Virus record (IMG/VR): IMGVR_UViG_3300032086_004221
Location: 1 to 20,632 of that record
DNA: 20,632 bases
Reading direction: 5' to 3' (one strand)
From: a virus
The notes beneath the pieces are model-generated. The model saw nothing but the letters and a program-made list of their open reading frames with translations, ran no database searches and was not told the DNA's origin. A program made the position numbers and the translations under genes. Shown piece after piece: positions 3,012 through 19,941 of the stretch (its first letter is position 1; every line of letters begins with the position of its first letter).

Positions 3012-3490
3012 GAAAATTGCTCCCGTCCATTACCAGAATTCCAACCACCAGGACCTGTATGAAAGTTTTCTGATCCACCAGGAGGATCAAGATCTAGTGT
3101 AGTGTTATGATTTTTAGTGGCAATTTCATACATCTTTTGATGAATATCATCAGGTTCGACAGAAAAACTTTCTTTTCTTTCCTGACGTTTCATTTCAATT
3201 TCTTTCTCCATATAATCAATCTGTTTTTGAGATCTGATAGGAGCAGGTCCAAACCACTCATCATCTTCTAGATATACAGGTGCCGGAATGCCAGTATAGG
3301 ATCCATATCCTTGAGTAAAATGTCCAGGTCCACATTCAACTAATGGTGCCTCCAAATCCAAACAATCAATTTGAGTTTCATCAATAGCACATTCAATTTC
3401 AGATTCATCAATAACATCAGGCCAATTAATACTGGTTACTTGCTCTCGTTTGAATATGTTAAGTTTTTGTTTAATGTCTTTGATGATCAT
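3008..3490 (-). CDS. Acidic hypothetical protein, 160 aa
   Basis: I do not recognise this protein. It is acidic and low in hydrophobic residues. It contains an E/D-rich segment (DVIDESEIECAIDETQIDCL), a glycine/proline region with GHFTQGYGSYTGIPAPVYL, and a disordered Gly/Asn/Pro-rich end (GPGGWNSGNGREQFS). A helix with the basic-acidic pattern EKEIEMKRQERKE lies near the centre. No signal peptide or membrane segment is seen. It overlaps both neighbours by 4 nt, so its translation is coupled to the cell-wall hydrolase before it. It could be a virion-associated or scaffold-like protein, which is only a guess. Confidence 0.65.
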   Translation of the reverse strand: MIIKDIKQKLNIFKREQVTSINWPDVIDESEIECAIDETQIDCLDLEAPLVECGPGHFTQGYGSYTGIPAPVYLEDDEWFGPAPIRSQKQIDYMEKEIEMKRQERKESFSVEPDDIHQKMYEIATKNHNTTLDLDPPGGSENFHTGPGGWNSGNGREQFS

Positions 3491-3873
3491 TGCCAGTGAT
3501 AGTGATAAAAATTTCCTTTATTATGGCACATAGGGTCTTGAGATGCAACCCTGTATCTGAGCATTCTCTGACCTTTGAAATCAGTTCGATCTCCAATAAT
3601 TGAGTATGCTTCAAGAAGTTTATCAGTATTACTCAAACGATTAACTACTGATTGCTTTGCAACCGGCCTCCAATATCGAAAACCCTCATATTGACCAGGA
3701 GAATAAACTACGTCCGCAACTGTATTGGGATATAGAGGAGATTTAAGACGATTGAGAATGGACACTGCCACACAGTATTCATCCATAGTTTTAGGTGCTG
3801 CTTCAACTTGCACTGCCCTTGCAAGATGATCATAATCAACTGCAGTAAGTGCTAAAATAGTTTCTAAAATCAT
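3487..3873 (-). CDS. Cell-wall hydrolase, SleB family
   Basis: A 128-aa protein that is almost entirely one SleB-type (Hydrolase_2) lytic domain. The diagnostic features are LARAVQVEA (residues 17-25, with the probable catalytic Glu24), ILNRL, and YSPGQYEGF. Enzymes of this family cut the glycan strands of peptidoglycan. No signal peptide is visible, so it would need a holin, virion packaging or host lysis to reach the wall. It is the first gene of its operon, right after the promoter at 3905-3934, and overlaps the next gene by 4 nt. Possible roles are lysis, virion entry or cell-wall remodelling. Confidence 0.85.
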   Translation of the reverse strand: MILETILALTAVDYDHLARAVQVEAAPKTMDEYCVAVSILNRLKSPLYPNTVADVVYSPGQYEGFRYWRPVAKQSVVNRLSNTDKLLEAYSIIGDRTDFKGQRMLRYRVASQDPMCHNKGNFYHYHWQ

Positions 3874-9743: not shown

Positions 9744-10792
9744 AATGAAGATATTACATCGTATATATCACTCTTTTTCATAGATGGTGTGAGTGGTAAA
9801 CAAACGTGCGGAACCCAAGAACGATTCTCTCCTACAAAAGTGTATGGATAAGAATTCTCATCAAGAATTGAGGTTATTTGATTAGTGTGATCATAAACAG
9901 GTGAAGTTTTTATCGGAGAATCTGAGATGAAACAAATATACTTATAATAAGATGGTGAGACAACAGATTCAGTATAGTTAATTTTTTTAAAAGACAAGTC
10001 ACCTAACTTTGAATCATAGATGTCTGCCAGTTCTTCCTTATGTTGGATAATTGATTTGTAGTTATTAATAATAACATTGGCAATTGCTGCAGAAAAATCA
10101 TTCATCCTAGCATTTGGAAGTGCTGGTAAAGAATGATGCAATTGTCCGTCAAAAGAATACTTACCATAATCACGCAAACAACGTGCTTGTTTTGCTTTTA
10201 CAGAATCTTTCAGAATAACAACTCCACCTTCACCAGCAGGAATAGGTTTAGTAGGAAAGAAGGATAAAATTGCGGCATCTCCAAAGGTGCCGACATATTG
10301 ATCATCTATACTGACAAAAGGTGAGTGAGCACAATCTTCGATAAGAATGACTCCTCTTTCTTTACACAGATTTGATATCTCTGCAATGTCAGGATTTGGA
10401 TATCCACCAATATGAGTAATAACAATAGCATCAGGTTCATACTCTAGGGCATCCTTGATGATGCTAATATCAGGCATTAAGAGATTCTGATTAGATCCAA
10501 GAAGAATGATCTCTTTATTAGTGGTTACCCATGGCAAACAACTAGCAAAGTACGTATTTGTCTGAACTGCTATCTTTTTAATTTCAGGAAATAGCAAACT
10601 AATTGTTTGAAGTGCAGTTCCACCACTTGAAGTTGTTACACAAGGACGTTTGTACAAATGCCAAAGAGTATCTTCAAGCAGTTTTGACTGTGGACCAGTG
10701 GACCAAAATCCAGAATGCAACACCTCAATCAATGATTTTTCTAATTGATCATTGATTGATTGACCAAAATCTAAAAATTTATAACCCATCAT
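9740..10792 (-). CDS. DegT/DnrJ/EryC1/StrS-family PLP aminotransferase
   Basis: A 350-aa sugar aminotransferase. Visible motifs are the TSSGGTAL phosphate loop, EDCAHS with the PLP-binding Asp, and SFFPTKPIPAGEGGVV, whose Lys (about residue 182) would form the Schiff base. The family converts a nucleotide-linked keto-sugar to an amino-sugar with glutamate as donor, in the cytoplasm. No dedicated 4,6-dehydratase is obvious next to it, so the keto-sugar may come from one of the SDR proteins here or from the host. The start is an ATG after GGAGAGG at 10796-10802; the next codon is also ATG. Confidence 0.9.
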   Translation of the reverse strand: MMGYKFLDFGQSINDQLEKSLIEVLHSGFWSTGPQSKLLEDTLWHLYKRPCVTTSSGGTALQTISLLFPEIKKIAVQTNTYFASCLPWVTTNKEIILLGSNQNLLMPDISIIKDALEYEPDAIVITHIGGYPNPDIAEISNLCKERGVILIEDCAHSPFVSIDDQYVGTFGDAAILSFFPTKPIPAGEGGVVILKDSVKAKQARCLRDYGKYSFDGQLHHSLPALPNARMNDFSAAIANVIINNYKSIIQHKEELADIYDSKLGDLSFKKINYTESVVSPSYYKYICFISDSPIKTSPVYDHTNQITSILDENSYPYTFVGENRSWVPHVCLPLTPSMKKSDIYDVISSF

Positions 10793-11597
10793 CACCTCTC
10801 CAATAATTAGACCATTTGGGATCGAGATACTCAGTAGAAGATGCGAAACGTAAATCGCACGATAATCTCGGAATCATATTGTTAGTATCAAAAGACGCAT
10901 GTACAACATTTAGACAATGAAATACTATATCTCCTTTCGAGACCTTTGGCAAGTACCAAGTCGTTTTAAGACGATCTGCCAAATCCTTCAGATCACTTGT
11001 AATTGTTTTATCATCTTTAACCAATTTTGTTATTGGTGAAATATTTTTATGAGAATCTTTAAGATAAACAAGTTGACCATGATGAAAATCAGCAGGTCCG
11101 AGTGGTATCCAAGCAGTTAATACTTTACTACTGTCTGATGTATGGAAGTAGTCTCTATCACGGTGTGCTAGGGTACATCTAGAACTAAAATGAGAGAAAC
11201 TTCTTAAGATAGCTCTTGGAGATAAGGCAGATTTTTCTGACCTTAATAGAACTGCTGCTAACTTTTTTAAAACACTAGACTCAATAAAATTACAGAATGC
11301 TTCTGAACGTACAAATCTATTAGCAGGGTGCGATCCTACACCATGTGATAATTTTGAACTTTTAACATGAGTCCATTCACTACCATCATACTCATAATCT
11401 TCACCAAACATAGAAAAATATTGACTCCGTAAAGAGTCAATAATCTCATGAGAAAAAACATTTTTTACAATTAGAATTCCCTCAAAATTATTAAGTGGTT
11501 TGCTGCTAAGAAGATCATCAAATTCAATGTAACATTCAGAAGGAACATCAATTGCTTCAAAAGACTTTCCAGATGCTTTTAGATTATATGGTTTCAT
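10779..11597 (-). CDS. Phytanoyl-CoA dioxygenase-like 2OG/Fe(II) oxygenase
   Basis: A 272-aa PhyH-family protein. The metal ligands are H145 and D147 in AHRDRDYF and H233 in NVVHASFD; R244 in PRLSCDLRF would bind 2-oxoglutarate. WIPLGPADFHHGQLVYLKDS is the typical core strand before the distal site. The family hydroxylates small molecules, lipids or sugar-linked substrates. Inside a glycan operon it may oxidise a glycan residue, an amino-sugar or a lipid carrier (inference). It overlaps the glycosyltransferase gene before it by 4 nt. Confidence 0.85.
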   Translation of the reverse strand: MKPYNLKASGKSFEAIDVPSECYIEFDDLLSSKPLNNFEGILIVKNVFSHEIIDSLRSQYFSMFGEDYEYDGSEWTHVKSSKLSHGVGSHPANRFVRSEAFCNFIESSVLKKLAAVLLRSEKSALSPRAILRSFSHFSSRCTLAHRDRDYFHTSDSSKVLTAWIPLGPADFHHGQLVYLKDSHKNISPITKLVKDDKTITSDLKDLADRLKTTWYLPKVSKGDIVFHCLNVVHASFDTNNMIPRLSCDLRFASSTEYLDPKWSNYWRGDDGL

Positions 11598-13098: not shown

Positions 13099-13766
13099 GC
13101 TGTTCTACTGTGATTTGAATAAACTATTTGAGGCATAATAGTATTACCTCTAATTGTATTTGCTTGTCCAGGAAGAATATTAGGTTTGATTCCCAGTTGA
13201 TGGCATACAAATGGAAAACTAATTTGATCTCTTGAAGAGAACATACATATTTGCTCCCACCACATCCAACCCATTCTTTGAGTCAATTCTGTGTTTCTCT
13301 GAACTCTTGCTGGTAATTCATATAATCCATTATTCTCAGGATAATCCATATCCATATAAAAGTCAAGTTGATCTTTCACCAAGTTTTGATGATCAAAATT
13401 AATTCTTATGACTTCCTTCCCTTCATCATATACACAGTTCTGACCAGGATGTTTGAATACTGCAACATCACTATTGCTCAGATATTTGTCAATGACATCA
13501 TAAGGATCGGTTTCAAGAATATGGGTGGAGTCAACCCAGAAATAATAATCATAGTCTGGAAGAAATGTAAAAGGAAGAACTTTATACACCTTAGCATTTC
13601 TTCTATTCTTATAAGTAGGATCTGAAGAGAATAGCAATACAGGATGAACGTTCCACCCATTTGCGGGAGATTTATCTACAAATGCATGATAGTCCACACC
13701 CTCAAATGGCACTGGTTTGATTAATTCATTGGTTCCAACTGATGCTGTTACAACTGCTATTTTCAC
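13095..13766 (-). CDS. DUF616-family putative glycosyltransferase
   Basis: A 223-aa protein of the DUF616/TOD1-like type. Signs are KIAVVTASVGTNELIKPVPF at the start, FSSDPTYKNRRNAKVYKVLP with the paired arginines and lysine, YFWVDSTHIL as the DxD-like site (D79), and VFKHPGQNCVYDEG. Proteins of this family are linked to polysaccharide assembly in plants and bacteria. It is a probable glycosyltransferase of the cluster. It overlaps the oxygenase gene before it and the methyltransferase after it by 4 nt each. Confidence 0.8.
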   Translation of the reverse strand: MKIAVVTASVGTNELIKPVPFEGVDYHAFVDKSPANGWNVHPVLLFSSDPTYKNRRNAKVYKVLPFTFLPDYDYYFWVDSTHILETDPYDVIDKYLSNSDVAVFKHPGQNCVYDEGKEVIRINFDHQNLVKDQLDFYMDMDYPENNGLYELPARVQRNTELTQRMGWMWWEQICMFSSRDQISFPFVCHQLGIKPNILPGQANTIRGNTIMPQIVYSNHSRTA

Positions 13767-14479
13767 TTTGATCTCTCCTTACATAATTTAACTATATCAG
13801 GGTCAGTTGATTGTTCCTCTGTTGGTACAAAAAGTGCCCTATATCTTTCTTCAGTGTTTTCGTCCACATCAGTTAGATAATAAACTGCAAGACTTTTTCT
13901 ATATTTTCCCTCTGGACAGGTCAGTGGTTTAGGTAATCCATGCCATGAATTCTGTGTAGTATCAAACAGGATTGCTCTATTGAACTTAGGTTCAATAGTT
14001 TTGATCAACTCTTTGGGTCTATTTGTTTCTGAATTATTTGACCATAATTCAAGACCACCACCCCAAGTAGAATCCCAGACATCGGACATATACACAATTA
14101 AGTTAAGTTTTCTCTGTAATTTTAACTTAGGGTGAATTGAATAATCTTTATGAATGTTTAAATTGCCACCCCTACCATGAATATGAAGACCGCCACCATG
14201 CAATCCATAGTCTGGATATAAGTTCTTAATACCAGTCATCGACTTAATAGTCTCAATGAAATCATTAGAACACAAGTCCTGCAGTGTCTTATAGATCTCT
14301 GGAGGAAATCTCAACCAGTGTTGCAAAGTCTTCTTATTTTCAATTGGATTTTCATAAAAAAACCACCTCTCATCATCATAATCAGGAAAGTTTTCAGTTA
14401 TCCTTTGTGCTTTATCAGGGGAAAAGAAGTCGTCAATAATCCAATGGTCAAAAGGTTCTTCATACGTTGATAAGGTCAT
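13763..14479 (-). CDS. 2-oxoglutarate/Fe(II) oxygenase (HxD type)
   Basis: A 238-aa 2OG oxygenase. The triad is H110 and D112 in LNIHKDYS and H180 in QNSWHGLP; R194 in KYRKSLAVYYL would hold 2-oxoglutarate. STWGGGLELW is the family strand between them. Enzymes of this shape hydroxylate protein side chains or small molecules and are frequent next to glycosyltransferase genes in phages and marine bacteria. It is distinct from the PhyH protein at 10779 and the HxE protein at 581. It overlaps the GT2 gene before it by 20 nt. Confidence 0.85.
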   Translation of the reverse strand: MTLSTYEEPFDHWIIDDFFSPDKAQRITENFPDYDDERWFFYENPIENKKTLQHWLRFPPEIYKTLQDLCSNDFIETIKSMTGIKNLYPDYGLHGGGLHIHGRGGNLNIHKDYSIHPKLKLQRKLNLIVYMSDVWDSTWGGGLELWSNNSETNRPKELIKTIEPKFNRAILFDTTQNSWHGLPKPLTCPEGKYRKSLAVYYLTDVDENTEERYRALFVPTEEQSTDPDIVKLCKERSK

Positions 14480-15197: not shown

Positions 15198-15692
15198 TTA
15201 TAAGTAATCAGAAACTTCATTTAATTCTCTTCGGTAATAATTACATTTATCTGTACAGATTCCATGAGTCCTAAGGATTCTGTCGTATTTACCCTCGTAT
15301 TTATCGTAATACGAAATAGACTCAGGTAAAACAATGATCGAATTATTATATGGTATTTGTCCCACTAATACCCATCCAACACCCTTATTAGTTAAAGCAT
15401 ACCTATCATTTTCATGATAAAAGTAATGCAAATTCATGACTGTAGAAGAGCAAAACTCTAAAGATTCACGATCTTTACAGTGAATCCAGAGTCTTTCTCT
15501 ATTTTTATACAACCATCCAAGTTTTAGTGGATATTGTGCCTTATCATGTCCAAGATAAAGTCTTTTATCTTTTACTCTTAGATCAATCTCTACATCATAA
15601 CCCAATTCCAACGCTTCGTCAATATAGTCTGGACTATTCTCCCTTTCAGGATTTATTCCATCTACATTTCCACGGTGAGCAATAATAATCAT
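15198..15692 (-). CDS. Small GDPD-like protein (glycerophosphodiesterase fold)
   Basis: A 164-aa protein with the glycerophosphodiester phosphodiesterase signature: IIIAHRGN (H6, R7), EN at 18-19, YDVEIDLRV (E35, D37) and LYLGHD (H49, D50). Full GDPD enzymes have about 240 residues or more, so part of the barrel is missing or reduced. Short proteins of this kind are found in capsule loci, often near a nucleotidyltransferase, as I remember them. The retained His/Glu/Asp residues suggest that a phosphodiester or sugar phosphate is bound or cut. It starts one base after the RuBisCO-like gene, which suggests a shared pathway. Confidence 0.8.
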   Translation of the reverse strand: MIIIAHRGNVDGINPERENSPDYIDEALELGYDVEIDLRVKDKRLYLGHDKAQYPLKLGWLYKNRERLWIHCKDRESLEFCSSTVMNLHYFYHENDRYALTNKGVGWVLVGQIPYNNSIIVLPESISYYDKYEGKYDRILRTHGICTDKCNYYRRELNEVSDYL

Positions 15693-15693
15693 A

Positions 15694-16932
15694 TCAAAAC
15701 TCTAAAACCCACTCTGGTAGAGATCCACCACCAGTTTCATAACCCCACTTATCGATAGCATCGCGGAACTCTTCTCCAGGGGTCTTATCAATCGCTTGTC
15801 GCATTGCCAAAGCACCTGATAAAGTTCCGCCAGGATGACCGTGAACAGCACCACCACAGTTTGCTAGAAAGTCAGTTCCAAACTTCTCAGCGGTGGTATT
15901 AACGATGCCTGGATGCATACCACAACTGAGTGCCGGTAAAACATTTCTATGATGTAAAGTGCCCATCACAGTATGCAGTTCTGCTTCATCATCACTCAAG
16001 TATCCACCCCACATACCAGCATGAATAGTATCAACTCCACATAGACCTGCAAGATCACAAAGAACACTCCAATCAATACCAAAGTTGTGACGCTTATCAG
16101 TCAGAATCTTATCTCCACTCTTCTGATAGTGAACGAACAGTGGTAGATCCATCTTCCTTACAGAATTATAGACACCTAGTCCACTCCAGAAATTGATATG
16201 AATACCGTTACCACCATTATCTGCAACAAACTTTGCACGATTAAGAATAGTGTGATGATCACCATTAATACAGAAGCAGTAAATTACTCCCCTACCACAT
16301 TCATTAATAAGATTTGAAATAAGTTCTACACGATCCTCAAGACGACAAAAAGATGGGTTGGAAAGAATCTCATCCTCTTTAATAAAGTCCACTCCACCGT
16401 CAAGAAGTTCTTTGACCATCTCCGAAAGAGTTTGTGGAGAAATTCCAGTTTTTGGTTTTACAATAGCACCAGAAAGTGGTCTATCATAACGATTAACAAA
16501 CTTACGGATACCATCAATACCATACTTAGGTCCCAAGAACTGTACTTCAACATCAGCAGGAAAGTCAAGTTTCCTAAGTCTACATGTTTTGAAGACATCA
16601 ATATCAAGTTGACCTCCCATTAGCTGACACAACAAATGAGAGATACCGTCACCATCCCAGTCGGTATTAACTTTTGGAAAACCAATCTTGACTTCTCCAG
16701 AAGTCATAGTTGTCAATTTATCTTCGTCATCATATATGACACATGAAGCGAGTTCAAATAATTCGTCACTTTCCCAACGATTGCGAACCTTTGGATTTCC
16801 AACACTTTGACCAATAGCAAGAGCCCAAGCAGCATCACGAAGATTTCCTAAGTCTTGATATGTTTCAATATAAAATGTTGCTATCACGCAACGATTCTTT
16901 TCTACCTCAGTCAGTTCTCTAAAAAATTCCAT
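15694..16932 (-). CDS. RuBisCO-like protein (RLP), 412 aa
   Basis: The whole length aligns by eye with the RuBisCO large subunit. Retained active-site residues are K159 and K161 (GAIVKPKTGIS; spinach K175, K177), the carbamate lysine K185 with D187 and E188 (DFIKEDE; K201, D203, E204), H268 (H294), H304 (TIHAG; H327), S336 (S379) and G360-G361. The loop-6 lysine needed for carboxylation (K334) is Y311, and R295 is Y269. This pattern fits a form IV-like RLP: Mg-dependent enolate chemistry on a phosphorylated substrate without CO2 fixation. Known RLPs are enolases or isomerases of methylthioribose salvage and decarboxylases or transcarboxylases of apiose routes. Here it overlaps a cupin gene by 14 nt inside a glycan cluster. 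The gene is richer in GC than its neighbours. The reaction is unknown. Confidence 0.9.
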   Translation of the reverse strand: MEFFRELTEVEKNRCVIATFYIETYQDLGNLRDAAWALAIGQSVGNPKVRNRWESDELFELASCVIYDDEDKLTTMTSGEVKIGFPKVNTDWDGDGISHLLCQLMGGQLDIDVFKTCRLRKLDFPADVEVQFLGPKYGIDGIRKFVNRYDRPLSGAIVKPKTGISPQTLSEMVKELLDGGVDFIKEDEILSNPSFCRLEDRVELISNLINECGRGVIYCFCINGDHHTILNRAKFVADNGGNGIHINFWSGLGVYNSVRKMDLPLFVHYQKSGDKILTDKRHNFGIDWSVLCDLAGLCGVDTIHAGMWGGYLSDDEAELHTVMGTLHHRNVLPALSCGMHPGIVNTTAEKFGTDFLANCGGAVHGHPGGTLSGALAMRQAIDKTPGEEFRDAIDKWGYETGGGSLPEWVLEF

Positions 16933-17254
16933 TTGTTACCTCAAATTTGTCAGTTGGTATGGATGGAACTTTTACACAGACTACTCTACAGTCCTCATGA
17001 AATACTGGGTCTGCCACTTCTCCCTTTCCAAATACAAAAACATCTCCGGAATTTAATTCTGTTCCCTGAATGGTCATACGACCTTCAATCAAGACATTAT
17101 ATTCTACACACTCCTTATGATAATGTGCTGGCCATTTTTCATCTTTTTTGTGTGTTAAAACAGCAACTTCAAAATCTTTTGTTTTCAAAAGACTTGGTTC
17201 AAAGTTACCAATAAAATAACCTCGAACATAATCACTCAACTTAGTCACATTCAT
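16919..17254 (-). CDS. Small single-domain cupin
   Basis: A 111-aa cupin. Motif 1 is WPAHYHKECVEYNVLIEGRM with H44, H46 and E51 as metal ligands; motif 2 has H86 in VADPVFHEDC. A glycine turn (LNSGDVFVFGKGEV) lies between them. Single cupins of this size are metal-dependent isomerases, epimerases, dioxygenases or binding proteins of sugar phosphates or acids. Overlaps of 4 nt with the nucleotidyltransferase and 14 nt with the RLP tie it to both. It probably acts on the same small molecule, but the reaction cannot be told from sequence. Confidence 0.85.
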   Translation of the reverse strand: MNVTKLSDYVRGYFIGNFEPSLLKTKDFEVAVLTHKKDEKWPAHYHKECVEYNVLIEGRMTIQGTELNSGDVFVFGKGEVADPVFHEDCRVVCVKVPSIPTDKFEVTNGIF

Positions 17255-17964
17255 AATTTATCTAGATAAGTTTTTAAGTCTTCTGGAACTCCAACTGGAT
17301 TGTGCTGTTCGTTGGGAATATGATGAACTCCAATTGAAAAACCTTTCTTAATCATATAATTATATGTTGGTCCAACATAGAATTCTCCGTTAGGAGCTCT
17401 GTCATCAGATTCTATCATATCTAGAGCACTTTGCACAAAGTATTTTCCCTTTCTCCAATAATGAATACCATTCAAAGAAATATTACTAAGAACAATTTTC
17501 TCGCGTATTTCAGTAACAAATCCTTCTCTATCAATTTTTGCGTAACTGTTCTTCTCAGTATTTGTGTAATAAGTAACTACTACACCATCATACTTATAGT
17601 ATCTGGATGTTATTAGAAAAAGTTCTGGATCCCACCACATAATTTGATCACAGTTACAAATTACAAGTTCTTCTTCATTGTCAATATAATCTTTAAATAA
17701 AAGACAACTTGAAGCTGGCCCTTCTGTTGTTTCTTCTACGGATATTATTTTAGCTGAAGGTAGAATAGTATGCAACAATGTACATACTTGATCATAGTAA
17801 CTATCTTTTCTAATAATAAAATGATATGTTCCCACCATACCTAATGATTCTATTGCACATTGAATCATTGGTTTGCCATTAATATCAATCAGTGGTTTTG
17901 GTATTTTGTATTTGTCTCTGGGAAATCTAGTCCCCTCACCTGCCATTGGAATTATTATATTCAT
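17251..17964 (-). CDS. Sugar/polyol-phosphate nucleotidyltransferase
   Basis: A 237-aa NTP-transferase protein. The signature is NIIIPMAGEGTRFPRDKYKI with the glycine loop and R13, then PKPLIDINGKPMI with K23, and CNCDQIMWWD with D106 for the metal. The family activates sugar phosphates or related phosphates as NDP derivatives. Relatives with the same start are found in capsule loci, including Campylobacter cytidylyltransferases that activate non-sugar groups, so CTP and an unusual substrate are possible. It overlaps the methyltransferase-like gene and the cupin gene by 4 nt each. The substrate is probably made by the cupin and the RLP, which is an inference from gene order. Confidence 0.88.
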   Translation of the reverse strand: MNIIIPMAGEGTRFPRDKYKIPKPLIDINGKPMIQCAIESLGMVGTYHFIIRKDSYYDQVCTLLHTILPSAKIISVEETTEGPASSCLLFKDYIDNEEELVICNCDQIMWWDPELFLITSRYYKYDGVVVTYYTNTEKNSYAKIDREGFVTEIREKIVLSNISLNGIHYWRKGKYFVQSALDMIESDDRAPNGEFYVGPTYNYMIKKGFSIGVHHIPNEQHNPVGVPEDLKTYLDKL

Positions 17965-18590
17965 TTTTTTCTAGCAAATCCAATGCCCCAATCTTCTGGG
18001 CAACAGTTTTCTATAACATCCCATTTACCTTTATCAAGTGCTTTAATAAAGTTATTAGGACCAGGATGACATGAGGTATCATGAAATCCAACAATACCTC
18101 CATCAGCAAGAAGATTAGTATATTCCCAATCAGTCAAAACTTGATTAATACTATGCCACCCATCAATAAAAATAAAATCAAATTTTTCTACACCAATTGT
18201 TTTAAAAATTTCAACATTTTCATGATAATATGAACTGTTATTTTGAACAGTATGAATATTATTTTCAGAATCTCTTAAAAAAGAACGATCATCAATATCT
18301 AATCCAATATAAAAAGTATTCTTTTTTTTGTTCTTAAAAAATACATACGCAAAGGATTCTTCAGCGTTTCTACCAATACCAATTTCCAATATTGCCTTAC
18401 AATTGTCACGAACTTTATTAAATTGTTCTAAAAGATGATATCTATTACAATGAGTTACTTCTTTGGGATAGACGATTTCATTATCAATTATTTTATGCCG
18501 ATACCCCAATGGATGTGGAACACCACCATCTTGATCATCAAACTCAGTAAAAGTTCTAATATCTTTGATTAAATCAGATTTCCATTTCAT
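17961..18590 (-). CDS. SAM-methyltransferase-like protein (Methyltransf_24/CmcI type)
   Basis: A 209-aa Rossmann protein. ILEIGIGRNAEESFAYVFF is SAM motif I, FYIGLDIDDRSF motif II, and FDFIFIDGWHSINQVLTDWE the acidic motif with the following helix; GGIVGFHDTSCHPGP is typical of the CmcI/cephalosporin-hydroxylase-like group. An O-methyltransferase acting on a sugar is the likely reading. The start overlaps the GT11 remnant by 17 nt and the end overlaps the nucleotidyltransferase as ATGA. It is one of the most AT-rich genes of the cluster: one 60-base line at 18181 has 12 G or C. Confidence 0.8.
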   Translation of the reverse strand: MKWKSDLIKDIRTFTEFDDQDGGVPHPLGYRHKIIDNEIVYPKEVTHCNRYHLLEQFNKVRDNCKAILEIGIGRNAEESFAYVFFKNKKKNTFYIGLDIDDRSFLRDSENNIHTVQNNSSYYHENVEIFKTIGVEKFDFIFIDGWHSINQVLTDWEYTNLLADGGIVGFHDTSCHPGPNNFIKALDKGKWDVIENCCPEDWGIGFARKK

Positions 18591-18743: not shown

Positions 18744-19829
18744 TCAAACTGGGTAACGAAAAACATTTTTAGATGATGATTCAAAAGTTTTATAGGAAAT
18801 CTGCTTACCAATCCAAGTATATGTCTTGCGAATACCCTCTTCAAGAGTTTGAGAATAATCCCATCCAAGTTTTTCACGGATTAAATCATTGTTGGAGTTA
18901 CGACCACGCACACCCAGAGGACCATCAATGTGAAGTTTTTGAACATCTTTACCAGCAACTTTAGCAACAGTCTCCACCAATTGATTGATAGTAACCATCT
19001 CTTCGGAACCAATATTAACAGGACCAATGAAGTCACTATCCATCAACCGTCGAGTTGCTTCAATGCATTCATCAATGAACAAGAAGGAACGAGTCTGTAA
19101 GCCATCTCCCCACACCTCAATTGCTCCACCCTCCTCCGGAAGGTAAGCGACTTTACGGCAGATTGCAGCTGGTGCCTTCTCTCTTCCACCTTCCCAGGTT
19201 CCTTCGGGACCAAAGATGTTATGATATCTAGCAATGCGAACAGGAATACTATAATTCCTATTGTAAGCAAGGTACAGACGTTCGGAAAATAACTTTTCCC
19301 ATCCATATTCCGAATCTGGGTCTGCTGGATATGCGGATTCTTCACGACAATCGGGGTTATCAGGGTCAAGTTGGTTGTGTTCTGGATACATGCAAGCAGA
19401 TCCAGAATAGAAAATCTTAGTCTTATTTCCTACAGTCTCATTAAACTTTCGTTGTTCCTCAAGAACATTCAGATTGATAGTGACAGAGTTGTGCATAATG
19501 TCTGCATCGTTCTCTCCAGTAAAAACGAAACCTGCACCACCCATATCAGCAGCAAACTGATAAATCTCATCAAATGGACGATAATATCTTTCGGGTACAC
19601 TTGCGTAAAAATTACCAAGATACCCCTTAAATCGAAGACAACGACGAACAAAGTTTACATCACAAAGATCTCCCTGCACAAATTCATGTGCTTTAGTTCC
19701 AGAAAACTCAGGAGTCTTAAGATCTACACCACGAACCCAATATCCTTCGGACTTAAGTCTCTCGACCATATGACTTCCTATAAATCCACCAGCACCAAGA
19801 ACTAGTGCTGTCTTCTTAAATTCAGACAT
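18744..19829 (-). CDS. gme: GDP-mannose 3,5-epimerase
   Basis: A 361-aa extended SDR matching plant-type GME along its length. Visible are GAGGFIGSH (12-20), FAADMGGAGF, SGSACMYPE with S143 and C145, YGWEK with Y174 and K178, and HNIFGPEGTWEGGREKAPAA with K217. C145 and K217 are the residues known as acid/base pair in the plant enzyme. WGDGLQTRSFLFIDECIEA and NIGSEEMV complete the family pattern. The enzyme turns GDP-D-mannose into GDP-L-galactose or GDP-L-gulose in the cytoplasm. It is the first gene of the cluster, about 18 nt from the predicted transcription start, without a clear ribosome-binding site. Its GC content is higher than that of the following genes. Confidence 0.93.
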   Translation of the reverse strand: MSEFKKTALVLGAGGFIGSHMVERLKSEGYWVRGVDLKTPEFSGTKAHEFVQGDLCDVNFVRRCLRFKGYLGNFYASVPERYYRPFDEIYQFAADMGGAGFVFTGENDADIMHNSVTINLNVLEEQRKFNETVGNKTKIFYSGSACMYPEHNQLDPDNPDCREESAYPADPDSEYGWEKLFSERLYLAYNRNYSIPVRIARYHNIFGPEGTWEGGREKAPAAICRKVAYLPEEGGAIEVWGDGLQTRSFLFIDECIEATRRLMDSDFIGPVNIGSEEMVTINQLVETVAKVAGKDVQKLHIDGPLGVRGRNSNNDLIREKLGWDYSQTLEEGIRKTYTWIGKQISYKTFESSSKNVFRYPV

Positions 19830-19853: not shown

Positions 19854-19882
19854 ATTATACAAAAAAAAGAGGGTTATTACAA
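19854..19882 (-). promoter_or_regulatory. Sigma70-like promoter of the glycan cluster
   Basis: TTGTAA (19877-19882, 4 of 6) is followed after 17 nt by TATAAT (19854-19859, 6 of 6) and a TG before the -10 box region. The -35 box lies in the loop and arm of the preceding terminator. Start of transcription is expected near 19847. It would drive the long gene series that begins with GME, for which I see no other strong promoter. Confidence 0.6.
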
Positions 19883-19888
19883 CCCCCC
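19860..19888 (-). terminator. Rho-independent terminator before the glycan cluster
   Basis: On the minus strand GGGGGGTT (19888-19881) pairs with AACCCTCT (19875-19868) around a GTAAT loop, with two G-U pairs, and a run of eight or nine T follows. It lies about 55 nt after the stop of the 70-aa gene and should separate that gene from the glycan cluster. Confidence 0.8.
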
Positions 19889-19941
19889 TAAGATATATTT
19901 CTCCATGCACGCCACTTGTTTTTTTTTAAGAAACAAGAAAC

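Follow-up and report, generated by a model that had tools for sequence, protein, structure and literature searches.

A RuBisCO-like gene in a cyanomyovirus-type record

What reaction is carried out by a RuBisCO-like protein (RLP) that is encoded by a virus, keeps the carbamate-lysine site of RuBisCO and has a tyrosine at the loop-6 lysine? To our knowledge, most RLPs still lack an assigned function, and the functions assigned so far lie in sulfur salvage or in the breakdown of acid sugars. We studied an RLP of 412 aa encoded at 15694..16932 on the minus strand of a virus record of 20,632 bases (IMG/VR IMGVR_UViG_3300032086_004221; this whole stretch is called the window), whose genes are of cyanomyovirus type as judged by PHROG matches and by the DNA identity of its epimerase gene to cultured Synechococcus phages.

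The protein matched PF00016, the catalytic domain of the RuBisCO large chain, with an E value of 4.3e-43 and 148.1 bits (gathering cut-off 30.1), which places it in the superfamily. Comparison of the window gene with its relatives gave dN/dS values of 0.04-0.09 in six of seven pairs, the seventh being saturated at synonymous sites, and the gene is under purifying selection; because of the E value together with these ratios, the RLP is not a chance match. Every NCBIfam model that matched it scored far under its own cut-off: rubisco_III gave 201.8 bits (cut-off 497.45), the MtnW models TIGR03332 and NF007095 gave 123.8 (513.6) and 166.3 (409), and the OiaX model NF042437 gave 155 (700). A sequence-only reading of the locus had proposed structure prediction and superposition as a check, and at the level of the fold this was done. 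An AlphaFold model built on 20 relatives (pLDDT 91.1, pTM 0.90) had form III RuBisCO 2cwx as its top match by VIA-align (Z 42.8, rmsd 2.3, 381 aligned), tied with MtnW 2zvi (Z 42.6, rmsd 2.5, 367 aligned); other fold matches were 1ykw, 2qyg and 3nwr. The shared fold by itself shows no function.

Active-site residues of the RLP family

We read the active site from a multiple alignment of the RLP family with 29 references (11 of RuBisCO form I/II/III type, five of the OiaX clade, 12 OiaX-sister RLPs, and one MtnW) and from hhalign runs of the family profile against nine reference sequences, with counts referring to 81 viral members (80 loci plus the window) and 24 cellular ones. Both approaches placed RuBisCO residues K175, K177, K201, D203, E204, H327 and S379 at K159, K161, K185, D187, E188, H304 and S336 of the RLP, as had been proposed by eye, and the earlier coordinates and residue numbers agreed with the codons when these were read back on the minus strand (K159 16456-16458, K185 16378-16380, H304 16021-16023, Y311 16000-16002, S336 15925-15927). 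The equivalent of the carbamate lysine K201, Lys185, and the metal ligands Asp187/Glu188 (16369-16374, minus strand) are present in 81/81 viral and 24/24 cellular members, i.e., the metal-centre residues are fixed in all 105 sequences; judging by sequence and strand position, Lys185 would face the metal. His304 is found in 70 of the 81 viral members, with Gln in the other 11.

At the loop-6 position K334 the family has a tyrosine (Tyr311 in the window RLP) in every one of the 81 viral members and of the 23 readable cellular ones. All nine hhalign runs put Tyr311 at this lysine or at most one residue off, the runs with OiaX and two RLPs being off by one relative to the multiple alignment, and residues 305-317 of the window RLP hold no lysine; one occurs in this stretch in 6/81 viral members, never at the tyrosine position. 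The tyrosine assigned earlier was therefore upheld. A tyrosine at K334 common to OiaX was suggested by hhalign and rejected, since the larger alignment puts a lysine of OiaX there.

Strand β5 (residues 266-270 in the model) came out differently from the sequence-only reading, which had H294 present and R295 as Tyr269. In eight of nine hhalign runs (the ninth is gapped there) and in the multiple alignments, Gln270 corresponds to H294 and Lys271 to R295 (16120..16125, minus strand), and His268 falls at H292. Gln270 is constant (81/81 viral, 24/24 cellular), and Lys271 is found in 77/81 viral members, with Ser in the other four. Among the 24 cellular members, 12 have Phe and one has Met in place of His268, which, being lost in 13 of them, cannot be essential to the family; this loss and the profile alignments led us to reject the pairing of H294 with H268 and of R295 with Y269. 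An MtnW-like motif (H-P-A..G) fits by eye on His268 and may be the origin of the misalignment. The residue mix put forward earlier thus stands at eight of its ten positions and falls at H294 and R295.

Five further replacements had been missed: E60 to Gly41 (16810..16812, inside the fixed motif GQSxGNPxxR; one of nine hhalign runs shifts it by one residue), T65 to Asn46, N123 to Gly107 (16612..16614, in both the multiple alignment and hhalign), D202 to Glu186 and G380 to Cys337, all encoded on the minus strand and, wherever they can be read in the 24 cellular rows, fixed. With these positions changed as well, the active site has been rebuilt around an intact Mg-carbamate, and the combination of residues was seen in 0/29 references. 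In RuBisCO, K334, E60 and N123 serve in handling the gas substrate and in orienting or stabilising the carboxylated intermediate, N123 belonging to a loop of the partner subunit's active site, and H294 touches the substrate. As read from the alignments, the metal centre of the RLP is kept while the residues for the carboxylated intermediate are lost together. That K185/D187/E188 are fixed and that K334, E60 and N123 have disappeared jointly is consistent with the earlier expectation of an enzyme that keeps its Mg-carbamate, can enolise, and would not stabilise a carboxylated intermediate.

The RLP family forms a single clade, separate from RuBisCO, MtnW and OiaX

A scan of viral contigs gave 240 stretches encoding RLP relatives, of which the best 80 were analysed, and 32 loci came from 84,980 species genomes of bacteria and archaea, 23 of these loci (L082-L104) belonging to the RLP family by score. 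A family HMM separated members (at least 295 bits) from all other RuBisCO relatives tested (at most 198.5 bits). In a maximum-likelihood tree of 72 rows, which omits named IV-Photo, IV-NonPhoto and DeepYkr references and from which nine duplicates, fragments or near-copies were dropped, the 43 family rows formed one side of a 100/98 branch against the 29 others, OiaX included, and family membership was a single change in 100% of 200 bootstrap trees. The RLP family is thus one clade apart from RuBisCO, MtnW and OiaX.

Carriage by cellular genomes is patchy (4 of 22 genomes of the genus Legionella; 2 of 247 of a Pelagibacter family), and some loci from metagenome-assembled genomes (MAGs) may be viral contigs, such rows being included in the cellular counts. 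The RLP on a Crocinitomicaceae MAG contig (L082) is identical to that of viral locus L043 over the tree columns, and L082 probably represents viral DNA that was binned with a MAG. No direct relative of the RLP was found in 50,697 phage records by tblastn, nor in PHROGs, and the plasmid matches listed (best 40 of 351) comprised only OiaX, other RLPs and RuBisCO at <60% identity. Of 20 large contigs that bear the RLP, three have genes of the psbA/psbD family, indicating that at least some RLP carriers are cyanophages. One RLP cassette lies on a contig of jumbo-phage size (L056, IMGVR_UViG_3300017917_001342, 518,643 bases).

The RLP gene lies in a cassette with a nucleotidyltransferase gene

The window RLP gene has three close neighbours, all on the minus strand: N (17251..17964), a nucleotidyltransferase of 237 aa (PF00483, 3.3e-8; nearest PDB entry 4evw, 4e-12); C (16919..17254), a small cupin-like protein of 111 aa (weak match to Cupin_7, 0.0041; its relative in L086 matched Cupin_2 at 1e-5); and H (15198..15692), 164 aa, which resembles a miniature GDPD by its fold model and invariant residues. 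N and C overlap by 4 bases and C and RLP by 14, and a single base separates RLP from H. Upstream of N lie a methyltransferase gene (17961..18590, minus strand; PF13578, 7e-7), too little conserved for the cassette core, and, heading the island, a gene for a sugar-nucleotide epimerase common to cultured Synechococcus phages (18744..19829, minus strand; PF01370, 2e-35), with about 80-83% DNA identity to these cyanophages.

Of the 80 viral loci, 77 have N, 67 have C and 61 have H within 2.5 kb of the RLP gene, on the same strand throughout except for one H (60 of 61). The loci that lack N are L001, L021 and L075, and in the first two the sequence ends near the RLP. In the cellular loci N lies near the RLP in 21/23, H in 15/23 and C in 7/23, and the four-gene order H-RLP-C-N is found in Azospirillum oleiclasticum (L099) and in an Elusimicrobium (L098; Elusimicrobia). 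Few sequenced phages carry N or H (19 and 16 of 50,697 records, respectively), so their co-occurrence with the RLP is not background.

H had no match to Pfam, NCBIfam or PDB sequences. Its model (pLDDT 93.2) is a condensed GDPD barrel with a best VIA Z of 11.1 to 7e0v; among the top 33 VIA rows, 24 carry the title GDPD, GlpQ or phosphodiesterase (Z 8.2-11.1), and the other nine comprise five phospholipases D, two rows of a multidomain glucanase and two of a phage spike. Foldseek alone gave a weaker result, with one match under E 0.001, a GDPD. Residues H6, R7, E35, D37 and H49 are invariant in 30 H sequences and match HR...E.D...H, the catalytic pattern of GDPDs. Both fold and residue pattern point to H as a GDPD-like predicted phosphodiesterase.

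In Legionella, the RLP and N genes adjoin a divergent gene for LicD (PF04991, 1e-42 in the one tested), a LicD homologue being beside the RLP in 4/4 RLP-bearing genomes of this genus; H and C were not found in locus L100, the one recounted. LicD proteins move phospho-groups from CDP-activated donors, and this neighbour therefore fits a phosphodiester-linked product.

Variants of N were also seen. Two different N-type genes flank the RLP in the order H-N'-RLP-N in Pelagibacteraceae loci L090, L091 and L093-L096, and N' of L095, the one tested, had no Pfam match. A Pelagibacteraceae contig carries an ORF of 1,695 aa (L097:2389-7473, plus strand) that has no Pfam match and contains an N-type nucleotidyltransferase match; C and then a divergent RLP come after it. 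A protein of 532 aa with two tandem nucleotidyltransferase-like domains is encoded near the RLP cassette of L053 (1327-2922, plus strand), and fusions of a HAD domain to N lie beside the cassette in 3/81 (L010:5599-6966, L079:3247-4617 and L076:1-1014), as in phages S-CAM9 and B23.

RpiB replaces the RLP in an otherwise similar cassette

Cultured cyanophages without the RLP carry homologues of N fused to other domains, namely RpiB (ribose-5-phosphate isomerase B) in Synechococcus phage SynMITS9220M01, DHBP synthase in S-SKS1, and a HAD domain in S-CAM9 and B23. Searching the viral contigs with the N-RpiB fusion of SynMITS9220M01 gave 44 loci, of which 43 had N-RpiB, 41-42 had C, 37 had H and none had the RLP; conversely, RpiB was present in 0/80 viral RLP loci. 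Between the two kinds of cassette, C is 44-53% identical (41/41 matched) and H 43-77% (37/37). In SynMITS9220M01 the fusion gene lies downstream of an epimerase gene that is 80.3% identical in DNA to window positions 18809-19814, and this shared upstream gene indicates that the RLP and RpiB modules lie in phage glycan islands of one kind. The RLP is thus replaced by RpiB in an otherwise same N-C-H set, the RpiB domain being fused to N, unlike the RLP, which has a gene of its own.

A search with the fusion of N to DHBP synthase gave 11 viral loci, with the fusion in 10 and C or H in none. The N in this fusion is a more distant one. Window N is only 33-34% identical to N of two listed N-RpiB phages. 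The S-SKS1 fusion (L115:6067-7494) lies near genes annotated as transaldolase and phosphoheptose isomerase.

A proposed function for the RLP, and its alternatives

The reading that we prefer, with a probability of about 0.58, is that the RLP enolises a ketose phosphate, as an isomerase, epimerase or decarboxylase, and supplies N with a sugar phosphate for a phosphodiester-linked glycan decoration. Part of this reading is that the clade appears to work in carbohydrate biosynthesis and not in CO2 fixation. In the direction that we infer, the Mg-carbamate would deprotonate a phosphorylated ketose, the likeliest being the monophosphate of a pentulose or tetrulose, and thereby give an enediolate; with K334, E60 and N123 gone, CO2 would be neither added nor held, and either the intermediate would regain a proton, as in an isomerase or epimerase, or a decarboxylation would be driven by the same centre. 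The neighbouring N, aided by C, would activate the resulting sugar phosphate, perhaps with CTP as its nucleotide, and the activated sugar would enter a phosphodiester-linked decoration on which H would act in phages and perhaps LicD in Legionella. A ketose monophosphate is proposed as the substrate mainly because ribulose 5-phosphate is enolised by RpiB as well as by DHBP synthase. That RpiB takes the place of the RLP favours an isomerase or epimerase reaction, and Rhodospirillum rubrum has an RLP that acts as an isomerase. CDP-ribitol synthesis (Bcs1, TarI/TarJ) likewise couples an enzyme acting on a pentulose phosphate to a nucleotidyltransferase and feeds phosphodiester-linked glycans; that enzyme is an NAD(P)H reductase, unlike an enolising RLP. 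The sequence-only reading had spoken of a reaction class not yet defined, which was reasonable, and the gene neighbourhood, which it did not use, narrows that class.

Several points count against the preferred reading. With Gln at H294 in the RLP family, the enolisation step may itself be different. The compound that N activates could be one that the RLP does not make, given the HAD-N fusions and the two N-type genes in Pelagibacteraceae, and the RLP and RpiB could make different products for different N enzymes, which are only distantly alike. C is lacking in 13/80 viral loci and in most cellular ones, and H is missing in part of the loci.

A clade that has its own fixed active site, is tied to a nucleotidyltransferase and is exchangeable for RpiB offers a testable substrate class, and members in cultured Azospirillum and cultured Legionella species are open to ordinary genetics and biochemistry. 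A literature search that reached few subscription papers found no paper tying an RLP to a nucleotidyltransferase cassette. More tentatively, this RLP branch might be an anabolic ketose-phosphate isomerase or epimerase, exchanged for RpiB in a portable nucleotide-sugar cassette of phages and bacteria. If so, the RuBisCO superfamily would gain a biosynthetic role in glycan decoration, and some orphan ocean RLPs (IV-GOS) may be explained. Form IV-GOS, which we compared by description only, resembles our family in being of ocean origin, uncharacterised and outside the known RLP clades; the form is listed in a review (PMC10173188), and a 2007 ocean-sampling paper describes RuBisCO homologues outside known clades (PMC1821046).

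Membership of the RLP among CO2-fixation AMGs, MtnW or OiaX was rejected on scores, residues and tree. As for function, the alternative that survives best, and which we regard as unlikely, is that the RLP acts in the manner of OiaX (3-oxo-isoapionate-4-phosphate decarboxylase) and forms a ketose phosphate (e.g., tetrulose or pentulose) for N by decarboxylating a 3-keto sugar-acid phosphate, with RpiB as the alternative source. OiaX is also an RLP with a Mg-carbamate and about 31% identity (the top record among the plasmid matches listed is annotated OiaX, 31%), its N123 is Gly too, and it has Gln at H327 as do 11/81 viral members. However, the window RLP reaches 155 of the 700 bits required and its clade is separate; the alignment shows H294, R295 and K334 kept and Ala at K177 in OiaX, the reverse of the RLP family; and no sugar-acid dehydrogenase or kinase stood out among the conserved RLP neighbours. 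The context of OiaX is catabolic.

An inactive or structural RuBisCO remnant, retained for binding or regulation, would account for the replacement of several classical catalytic residues, but we consider it very improbable given the low dN/dS and the metal-centre residues fixed in 105 sequences; the replacement residues, being fixed themselves, point to a new activity. Still less credible is a diketo-MTP-1-P enolase of methionine salvage. The RLP shares with MtnW the fold (tied with form III), a Mg-carbamate centre, a replaced K334 and Gly at E60, but its scores (124 vs. 513.6 and 166 vs. 409 bits) are far below the cut-offs, the residues at N123, K177, R295 and K334 differ (the sole MtnW reference has Lys, Gly and Pro at the first three), and methionine-salvage genes did not stand out among the conserved neighbours. 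Least of all do we favour a viral rbcL that fixes CO2 on RuBP, for although the RLP shares with form III RuBisCO (2cwx, 3a12) its PF00016 fold, the Mg-carbamate residues, K175, K177, H327 and S379, the positions expected of a bona fide RuBisCO of forms I-III hold Tyr311 (K334), Gly41 (E60), Gly107 (N123), Gln270 (H294) and Lys271 (R295; Lys in 77/81 viral members), T65, D202 and G380 are replaced as well, the score is 202 bits against the rubisco_III cut-off of 497, the clade is separate, and the neighbours are those of a glycan cassette, with no small subunit or phosphoribulokinase standing out among the conserved ones. Two papers label viral rbcL genes as CO2-fixing (PMC12607003; PMC8506154), and our results are a warning that viral "rbcL" genes reported as CO2-fixation AMGs may be glycan-biosynthesis enzymes.

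Other features of the window

A promoter scan of the sequence did no better than shuffles (24 vs. 21.7), and a tRNA scan found none. Terminator-like sites numbered 8 in the region, with 2.1 expected, and one terminator-like hairpin with a T-tail (19867-19889, minus strand) lies just upstream of the epimerase gene that heads the island. An endolysin-like gene is found at the edge of the glycan island (3487-3873, minus strand; phrog_12490, 4e-60). The same island holds three genes of the 2OG-Fe(II) oxygenase/PhyH type (581-1174, 10779-11597 and 13763-14479, minus strand).
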